Shown here: positions 45,828-46,458 of the stretch, in pieces
Layout: the number at the start of each line of letters is the position of its first letter
Position numbering within the stretch: position 1 is the stretch's first letter
DNA from: Arenibacter algicola
GTDB taxonomy: Bacteria > Bacteroidota > Bacteroidia > Flavobacteriales > Flavobacteriaceae
Assembly: GCF_018860365.1 (NCBI RefSeq)
Contig: NZ_JAHKPO010000003.1
Span: 496,001 to 560,000 of the forward strand
Length of the DNA stretch: 64,000 nucleotides
Direction of reading: 5' to 3'
The notes under the pieces: model-generated
Database searches by the model: none
Told to the model about the DNA's origin: nothing
Seen by the model: the letters and a program-made list of their open reading frames with translations, nothing else
Translations under genes and position numbers: made by a program

Positions 45828-45835
45828 TATTTTTG
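45828..45835 (+). promoter_or_regulatory. -7 box (TATTTTTG) upstream of the tRNA-Pro array
   Basis: An exact TAnnTTTG match lies 13 bases before the first tRNA-Pro 5' fragment. No equivalent precedes the second copy of the repeat, so this may be the original tRNA promoter and may now read through the GIY-YIG gene. A -33 TTG is not well placed. Confidence 0.4.
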
Positions 45836-45843
45836 CAATCTCA

Positions 45844-45970
45844 TTTTCGGGATGTGGCCCTTCGTCTACGCTCAGGACAGGCTGCCCCACAGGGGATTCA
45901 TTTATAAATGGAGATTCTGAAAAAGAATATAGAGTATTGAGCAAATTGTAGTATCGGGATGTGGCGCAGT
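45844..45970 (+). repeat. Direct repeat, left copy (127 bp)
   Basis: This stretch recurs at 46274-46400 with three mismatches. It begins with 11 bases of tRNA-Pro 5' sequence (CGGGATGTGGC at 45848-45858), runs through a GC-rich segment and about 70 bases of spacer, and ends inside the 5' part of a second tRNA-Pro copy. Confidence 0.93.
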
Positions 45971-46027
45971 TCCCGCAAAGGAGCGGGACAGACCGGTAGC
46001 GTATCACGCCCCGGGCGTGATGGTCGC
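45955..46027 (+). pseudogene. Broken tRNA-Pro copy
   Basis: The 5' part of tRNA-Pro is present (CGGGATGTGGCGCAGT), then a 22-base hairpin-forming insertion (45971-45992) splits the D-loop. The rest of the D-arm resumes (CCGGTAGCGT). The anticodon arm has become a perfect palindrome (ATCACGCCC-C-GGGCGTGAT), and after TGGTCGC the T-arm and acceptor 3' strand are missing. Nine bases later the GIY-YIG gene starts. Confidence 0.85.
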
Positions 46028-46035
46028 TTGAAATT

Positions 46036-46272
46036 ATGGAATATGTAGTTTACATATTGTTCAGTGAAACTACCGACAGGTATTATGTGGGGCAGACGAA
46101 CAATATTGAAAAACGGCTAGTTACCCATAATAATGGTGGTAAAAAGTATACATCCAAGGGCAGACCTTGGAATTTGATAAAAACTTATCCATGTACCGAT
46201 CGAATTGAGGCGGTGCAATTGGAAAGAAAGATAAAGAATAGAGGTATCAAACGATATCTGGACGAAAAGTAA
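46036..46272 (+). CDS. Small GIY-YIG nuclease family protein
   Basis: A 78-residue protein with the single GIY-YIG nuclease domain of the UPF0213/YhbQ type. The first strand reads YVVYILFSE, the second YYVGQTNN, then KRLVTHNNGG with the conserved Arg, KGRPWNLI, and a helix with the metal-binding Glu (EAVQLERKIKNR). No DNA-binding tail is present. It is bracketed by a 127-bp direct repeat carrying tRNA-Pro pieces, and its start is eight bases after the broken tRNA copy. It could be a homing-type nuclease for the tRNA locus (inference); small GIY-YIG genes are common near tRNAs and repeats in Flavobacteriaceae. Confidence 0.88.
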   Translation: MEYVVYILFSETTDRYYVGQTNNIEKRLVTHNNGGKKYTSKGRPWNLIKTYPCTDRIEAVQLERKIKNRGIKRYLDEK

Positions 46273-46273
46273 T

Positions 46274-46400
46274 TTTTCGGGATGTGGCCCTTCGTCTACG
46301 CTCAGGACAGGCTGCCCCACAGGGGATTCATTTATAAATGGAGATGCTGAAAAAGAATAGAAAGTATTGAGCAAATTGTAGTATCGGGATGTGGCGCAGT
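46274..46400 (+). repeat. Direct repeat, right copy (127 bp)
   Basis: Second copy of the repeat at 45844-45970. It carries the same 11-base tRNA-Pro 5' fragment at 46278-46288 and ends within the D-arm of the intact tRNA-Pro. Confidence 0.93.
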
Positions 46401-46458
46401 CCGGTAGCGTACACGGCTGGGGGCCGTGTGGTCGCAGGTTCAAATCCTGTCATCCCGA
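46385..46458 (+). tRNA. tRNA-Pro (anticodon GGG)
   Basis: All arms pair: acceptor CGGGATG/CATCCCG, D-stem GCGC/GCGT, anticodon stem CACGG/CCGTG with loop CTGGGGG (anticodon GGG), T-stem GCAGG/CCTGT with loop TTCAAAT, discriminator A. The CCA end is not encoded, as usual in Bacteroidota. It is the apparent insertion site of the mobile element to its right. Confidence 0.96.

Follow-up and report, generated by a model that had tools for sequence, protein, structure and literature searches.

We analysed a window of 64,000 nucleotides from the genome of Arenibacter algicola, in which a small nuclease gene lies upstream of tRNA-Pro(GGG). On the + strand, the locus consists of a -7-type box, a unit that we named X, a unit that we named Y, a second X and then the intact tRNA. 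The box (TATTTTTG, 45828..45835), which by its motif we take to be the flavobacterial -7-type box, is the sole TAnnTTTG on this strand between 45700 and 46500, and the earlier note had rightly placed the only good box ahead of the left repeat copy. The two nearest relatives with an empty site carry the same box 20 nt upstream of the tRNA. The 5' end of the tRNA occurs four times in the window, at 45848, 45955, 46278 and 46385, and these ends bound X (107 bp), Y (323 bp, with the nuclease) and X (107 bp) ahead of the tRNA (locus L133), each unit opening with the initial bases of tRNA-Pro. The first X (45848..45954) comprises nt 1-11 of tRNA-Pro followed by hairpin-bearing sequence and has no nuclease ORF; the second (46278..46384) repeats the first. 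Unit Y (45955..46277), which is 322-324 bp in relatives and tandem in some, consists of a tRNA-derived leader (45955..46035) that runs directly into a GIY-YIG nuclease ORF (46036..46272; 78 aa, single domain). The leader retains the acceptor 5' strand and the D arm, has an altered anticodon arm and lacks the T arm. Reading of the sequence and folding placed an inserted hairpin in the D loop (45971-45988) and a perfect hairpin in place of the anticodon arm (46003-46021). The leader as a whole was rejected as an unusually stable RNA, its signal being weak (z -1.55). The ORF stops 5 nt short of the second X, with its tRNA-like start, and 112 nt short of the intact tRNA (46385..46459; ARAGORN; Rfam RF00005, 62.2 bits), which is followed on the same strand by an inverted repeat (46485..46512), a probable terminator.

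The earlier note had described this region as a GIY-YIG gene between tRNA-Pro copies, with an intact tRNA-Pro beside it, inside a direct repeat. All of these features were recovered, and the repeat (45844-45970 and 46274-46400) is real, with copies of 127 nt that are 98% identical at a spacing of 430. The same note had proposed a homing-like insertion that left the repeat behind. Its core stood, in that we found a tRNA-tied element adjoining a partial tRNA copy with one working tRNA kept, but the repeat as an insertion scar did not. The repeat is made of 4 nt, X and the initial 16 nt of the tRNA copy that follows, and is therefore not a scar of nuclease insertion; 4 of 18 same-genus genomes have X without the nuclease at this tRNA, and the order in one relative is X-Y-tRNA, with a single X. 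A duplication without the gene had been named as evidence against the model, and the loci with X alone are partly of this kind, separating X from Y rather than refuting Y.

A tyrosine integrase gene (46685-47932), with Arm, SAM-like and catalytic domains, starts about 225 bp past the tRNA. The 3' side of tRNA-Pro(GGG) may be an integration site too, because the sequences past the tRNA vary among relatives. It is nevertheless extremely unlikely that the nuclease belongs to an integrative element with tRNA-Pro as its attachment site, and we rejected this candidate: the nuclease lies on the other (5') side of the tRNA, the downstream sequence is common to occupied alleles (L123 and the window) and empty ones (L126 and L131), no second tRNA 3' end was found in the window at up to 3 mismatches, and the genome contains a single full-length match to this tRNA plus partial matches in two other places. 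Group I intron homing endonucleases home into tRNA genes without killing the host. In the window, by contrast, the tRNA is kept by duplication and not by splicing, and a cmscan search of 45600-46700 at E values up to 1 detected tRNA only, with no intron-type RNA in Rfam. A defence system was also rejected, since PADLOC gave only weak and partial matches.

The nuclease belongs to the GIY-YIG superfamily (PF01541, E 1.5e-15) and has the conserved Tyr, Arg and Glu. In the family alignment, the conserved Y, Y, G, R, H, E and K residues were each present in 103-104 of 104 domains. Free-standing homing endonucleases usually carry a separate DNA-recognition module. No such module was found in the 78-aa protein, in which Pfam, NCBIfam and PHROGs matched only GIY-YIG-type or endonuclease regions. 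The solved chains nearest to the family profile were single-domain UPF0213 proteins (PDB 1zg2 and 1ywl) and SLX1, which is named a structure-specific endonuclease in the PDB, and not homing enzymes. The two UPF0213 structures are presumably of the YhbQ / YazA type; to our knowledge, genes of this type are solitary and have no tRNA linkage.

We then compared the same tRNA in 18 same-genus genomes (apparently Arenibacter), in each of which the tRNA query gave one full-length copy at 93-100% identity. On the upstream side, 8 loci were empty, 4 had X only (L124, L125, L127 and L134) and 6 had Y, one of them decayed, with the orthology of these alleles based on flank similarity for the near relatives and on the single-copy tRNA by itself for several others, whose flanks aligned poorly. 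Occupied, empty and decayed alleles thus occur at one site, as for a free-standing homing endonuclease. Besides X-Y-X in the window, the Y-bearing loci were one X-Y, one Y-Y, one Y-Y-Y, one that is probably X-Y-Y (its first unit deduced from the box distance) and one cut by a contig start, with two nuclease matches. A strict -7-type box was present 20-23 nt upstream of the tRNA in 6 of the 8 empty loci. The 130 bp ahead of the first unit aligned well between the window and its near relatives, including empty ones (102/123 in L126 and 100/132 in L131). In L132, both Y ORFs end early and lack a family-invariant Tyr; in L123, the first Y lacks the usual start codon. Among the seven intact Y ORFs, the mean dN was 0.056 and the mean dS 0.256 (21 pairs), indicating that the nuclease ORF is under purifying selection; in the named Arenibacter loci L183-L186, the nuclease was 87-95% identical. 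X was found in 4 of the 12 loci without Y and in about 3 of the 6 with Y, so that in this genus there was no visible excess of X beside the nuclease. Because the intact tRNA is identical in occupied and empty alleles alike (11 of 18 genomes), a foreign origin of its replacement end gives no signal.

To assess the linkage to tRNA genes, we searched with the window protein by BLAST, which gave matches in 120 of 199 genomes of the family. From at least 150 listed places, 111 loci were obtained and all examined; two had no detectable domain, leaving 109 best-matching loci. The results showed a tRNA within 500 bp in 84 of these, where about 2% per locus would be expected by chance if 50 tRNAs are assumed in 3.5 Mb; as with free-standing homing endonucleases, whose genes lie outside introns and inteins, the gene adjoins its presumed target. 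The nearest tRNAs within 1500 bp were on the strand of the nuclease in 87 cases and on the opposite strand in none. After intact tRNAs were masked, tRNA fragments within 600 bp were likewise all on the same strand (124 versus 0), and chance is excluded for the window arrangement because the arrangement recurs at related genes in this way. A tRNA could be assigned to 95 of the 109 loci once fragments were counted (84 by tRNA and 11 more by fragments), and the 14 loci with neither comprised 11 from one clade and 3 at contig ends. ARAGORN probably gave the names of other tRNAs to some altered copies; we excluded its SeC and Stop calls from the counts of fragments, assignments, ORF ends and promoter boxes and kept the 95-nt 'Lys' in L090 and the Pro(agg) and '???' calls. 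As a control, the 10 other GIY-YIG matches in the window's genome had no tRNA in flanks of up to 1.5 kb.

A phylum-wide search with the family profile (A1, E up to 1e-8) gave matches in 125 of 198 genomes and 72 of 103 genera. A nearby tRNA on the same strand was found at 27 of the 30 best loci, which include the window and a few earlier loci, and these added Thr, Lys, Ser(GGA) and Pro(CGG) to the 16 labels of the tree set, so that the nearest tRNAs are of about 20 types. In named genomes, some of them shared with the first survey, a nearby tRNA on the same strand was found at 72 of the best 80 of 291 relatives, nearly all of them Pro because the query was the Pro clade. The earlier note had suggested looking for partial tRNA copies at related GIY-YIG genes, and this association was strongly positive; its expectation that the genes start just after the partial copies was borne out in part, since about half of the family sits after, not before, its tRNA. 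Phage, plasmid and viral collections, examined as possible vehicles, contained few relatives (10 Rhizobium phage records, 1 plasmid record and 7 weak viral loci), and cargo of a phage or plasmid was rejected.

Two classes were distinguished by the side of the tRNA. In the 'before' class (Pro, Arg, Ala, Ser, Leu and others), a 5' tRNA fragment is followed by the nuclease and the intact tRNA, and in the 'after' class (Val, Asn, Phe, Met, Arg(TCT) and others), the intact tRNA is followed by a terminator-like stem with a T-run, the nuclease and a 3' tRNA fragment, which mostly begins at tRNA positions 41-52. Among 100 'before' ORFs, drawn from both surveys with some genomes counted twice, 58 end inside the tRNA (42 at positions 8-10), 2 beyond it and 40 ahead of it, and RNase P processing would thus sever many of these messages ahead of their stop. 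A TAG in the D loop was not a general stop in the 'after' class (6 of 38). In the 'before' class, a strict box was found ahead of the first leader in 5 of 16 loci and ahead of the intact tRNA in none of 16, compared with 3% at random places; in the 'after' class, it was found ahead of the tRNA in 16 of 32 loci and ahead of the nuclease in 2 of 32.

We constructed a nuclease tree from 104 domains (5 of 109 were dropped) and 73 alignment columns, in which many forks were unresolved. The isoacceptor label changed 25 times in 91 rows, compared with 64-75 times in 100 shuffles, and the side label changed 11 times in 78 rows, compared with 20-31 times in shuffles. Nuclease clades thus follow the tRNA isoacceptor, with a fidelity that is seen in the conserved Ser-Pro-Arg cluster: Pro-clade genes lie before Pro in L021, L025 and L028, and other genes lie after Arg in L037 and L102. 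Within the Pro clade, the tracking is looser and not strict, as the tRNA type with its side changed 16 times in 72 rows (28-37 when shuffled). This clade spans Flavobacteriales, Cytophagales and Chitinophagales, and its descent may be largely vertical because members of one taxonomic order stay fairly well together on the tree (7 label changes in 76 rows versus 14-17 shuffled).

Most family members therefore have the nuclease gene on the tRNA strand beside an intact tRNA, commonly with a partial copy on the other side. In many genera we see the same gene family again, with the same strand, side and tRNA type, which argues against a tandem duplication in which ordinary slippage or recombination at a tRNA gene would by accident have taken in a small gene nearby. 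The arrays and partial tRNA repeats have, it is true, the appearance of unequal crossing-over products, and unit X exists without the nuclease. At tRNA-Ala(GGC) of Flavobacterium, however, the fragments are not distributed as such a process would suggest. We took the best 30 loci from 54 genomes with matches: 23 had neither nuclease nor fragments, 5 had the nuclease after the tRNA and 2 had fragments only; upstream nuclease-less fragments were present in 4 of 5 occupied loci and 2 of 25 unoccupied ones (one-sided P 0.0026). X-like fragments thus go with the nuclease at this tRNA, and ordinary duplication, already disfavoured, is very unlikely. X-like tRNA 5' fragments without the nuclease also lie upstream of other tRNAs (L037, L049, L058 and L068), and fragments of this kind may be nuclease footprints or nuclease-less derivatives. 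Unit X as a dispersed REP family of the window genome was not supported, as it occurs in 5 places with 1 mismatch allowed, two of which are the window's own.

Of the 124 tRNA fragments, 42 stop before the anticodon, 48 begin after it and 34 (in 21 loci) include it, so that loss of the anticodon is common and not universal; it was discarded as a general rule, the Pro(TGG) leaders of L005, L025, L026 and L028 being examples that keep the anticodon. All 28 distinct Pro(GGG) leaders have a hairpin in or near the place of the anticodon arm (26 folded there and 2 by eye). We aligned 20 hairpins that replace this arm, hand-picked and partly drawn from these leaders, and found a stem of 7-8 bp with 99.4% of cells paired and 4 pairs changed on both sides, a covariation matched by none of 500 shuffles, although the alignment leans towards structure because of the hand-picking and because hairpins of other shape (L196, L197 and L209) were left out. 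In 66 remnants family-wide, the longest stem averaged 7.2, compared with 5.0 when shuffled. Hairpins thus commonly stand in for tRNA arms in the remnants. One palindrome of the remnants is also dispersed, with 0-47 copies in 15 genomes, and its backward control gave 0. This palindrome, TCCCGATnnnnATCGGGA, has 47 copies in G077 and 25 in G157, and in fragments linked to the nuclease, hairpins of this kind stand in place of tRNA parts.

These palindromes bear on the main rival, a structure-specific nuclease whose bare GIY-YIG domain would read hairpins or cruciforms of tRNA-gene or palindromic DNA and would spread or reshape hairpin-bearing fragments, somewhat like REP sequences and their transposases. 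REP sequences with RAYT transposases likewise combine a nuclease-type gene beside palindromes with copies that lack the gene; they differ in that RAYTs are HUH enzymes and tRNA parts are absent. The relatedness to UPF0213 and SLX1, the failure to find a DNA-binding domain, the long stems of the fragments and the dispersed palindrome are all consistent with structure reading, as is a sister clade without tRNA (L044, L045, L054, L061, L067, L075, L082, L084, L091, L096 and L107) that lies among palindromes and in which 4 of the 10 members tested exceeded the shuffled maximum for flanking inverted repeats. Against it, the clades track isoacceptors, which speaks for targeting by sequence or through homology, and G077 has few nuclease genes for its 47 dispersed palindromes. 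We consider this reading possible but doubtful, and a structure-reading nuclease could also be how the favoured explanation, given below, works. In the sister clade, several members lie among palindromes, and the flanking inverted repeats measure 21 nt in L084 and 16 nt in L075 and L096. A REP-like nature of this clade was rejected, since only 4 of 10 members exceeded the shuffled maximum and the L084 palindrome occurs in just 9 places of its genome with 1 mismatch allowed.

Taken together, the locus is best explained as a tandem of Y (with the nuclease) and X (without it) 5' of the single-copy tRNA-Pro(GGG), in which Y is a homing-like, tRNA-specialised minimal GIY-YIG element whose cutting and transfer we infer; we give this reading a probability of about 0.7. 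The survey suggests a Bacteroidota-wide, little-noticed selfish family that invades essential tRNA genes and leaves one copy working. In the proposed mechanism, the nuclease would cut its tRNA gene in cells free of the element, and repair would copy the element in together with the tRNA part that completes the gene; the host would survive because the inserted part rebuilds a complete tRNA. The 5' fragment would thereby be displaced upstream in the 'before' class and the 3' fragment downstream in the 'after' class. Recombination between repeats would then yield tandem arrays and perhaps remnants that lack the nuclease, such as X, with decay of the nuclease gene as a later step. The window nuclease has no consensus promoter box of its own and probably rides on transcription of the tRNA. 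The main difficulty of the homing view is recognition and self-protection, as the nuclease is a bare domain and a complete tRNA is still present in the occupied allele. Hypothetically, if the target reached from the tRNA into its outer flank, neither copy would contain it intact.

A host-useful module was also considered, in which the nuclease and the tRNA-like leader would regulate or amplify the adjacent tRNA through extra copies, or through decoy fragments against tRNA-cutting defences or toxins. The purifying selection on the ORF, the paired changes in the leader hairpin, the co-transcription geometry and the fragments that still cover the anticodon fit such a role, and SegB offers, in the accessible part of its description, a precedent of a tRNA-linked GIY-YIG enzyme that amplifies tRNA (PMC13096335). 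However, what is multiplied here is partial tRNAs, 90 of the 124 fragments being without the anticodon; presence is patchy within one genus, with decaying genes; and about 20 tRNA types are involved with no common use in sight. This module is therefore unlikely. More speculatively, and only as a tentative proposal, the family could be a new kind of minimal Bacteroidota element: a single-domain, structure-reading GIY-YIG nuclease acting on tRNA-gene hairpins, with lineages tied to one isoacceptor and one side, that would make nuclease-less repeats in trans and borrow the promoter, the terminator and the conserved TAG (positions 8-10) of the host tRNA, so that tRNA maturation would limit nuclease synthesis.

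In gene and tRNA context, the known system nearest to the window element is SegB of the T-even phages, which is longer than the 78-aa protein of the window. As far as its accessible description goes, SegB is a free-standing GIY-YIG homing endonuclease linked to many tRNA types, around which tandem repeats of tRNA and (truncated) nuclease segments arise, and recombination between the tRNA 5' region and the nuclease gene 3' region has been proposed (PMC13096335). It thus resembles the present family in nuclease type, in the range of tRNAs and in tandem tRNA/nuclease repeats, but it is phage-borne, and the same part of the source describes no partial-tRNA leader or isotype preference (PMC13096335). 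The family described here is instead chromosomal, a bare domain, isoacceptor-tracking and found on two sides of the tRNA. In keeping the host gene alive, the nearest systems are the mobile ORFs (mORFs) of fungal mitochondria, reported in the accessible part of the source from atp6, atp9, cox2 and nad3 of Glomus and atp6 of Allomyces and mostly of the LAGLIDADG type (PMC3630166). There, according to the same part, an essential gene is invaded by a nuclease ORF that carries a replacement for the end it cuts off, and the native end is displaced beyond the ORF (PMC3630166). A displaced host-gene end was likewise found here, as 3' fragments after the ORF in one class and 5' fragments before it in the other, and the displaced tRNA end is presumably the native one. 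The mORFs differ in residing in mitochondrial protein genes, whereas the present elements are in bacterial tRNA genes, replace either end, form tandem arrays and leave hairpin-altered remnants. In the accessible part of the 2006 survey of the GIY-YIG superfamily, tRNA is mentioned three times, for a methyltransferase fusion and in reference titles, not for gene linkage (PMC1564403). Our literature search on this arrangement and its relatives, with most subscription papers outside its reach, found no description of it among the titles and abstract openings listed.

If this reading is true, tRNA genes throughout the phylum are host to tiny parasitic nuclease genes, which, with neither introns nor inteins, persist in essential genes by restoring these. 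Such parasitism would account for broken tRNAs in tandem, for assemblies that break at tRNA loci and possibly for many small genes annotated as 'GIY-YIG nuclease family protein'. With its isoacceptor-tracking clades, the family offers a natural series for studying how a nuclease of 78 aa locates a single tRNA gene. The homing life cycle can be tested directly in bacteria, since empty, X-only, occupied and decayed alleles all occur within one genus.

We also examined tRNA-Pro(TGG) at 20 loci of the same genus. Nuclease matches were found ahead of the tRNA in 10 loci, several of them cut by contig ends, and none in the other 10. In the window's genome, the assembly breaks at the nuclease array of this tRNA, and the same gene is found at the start of contig C27 (L005) and at the end of contig C11 (L007). 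Contigs of this phylum that end at tRNA loci may often do so because of such arrays. Tandem arrays of 7, 8 and 5 nuclease domains were observed in L104, L113 and L085, respectively. The sister-clade gene L044 lies about 0.4 kb from a tmRNA gene. Elsewhere in the window's genome, on contig C21, a small GIY-YIG gene (L001) lies among dispersed palindromes and is enclosed by a perfect inverted repeat of 25 nt.
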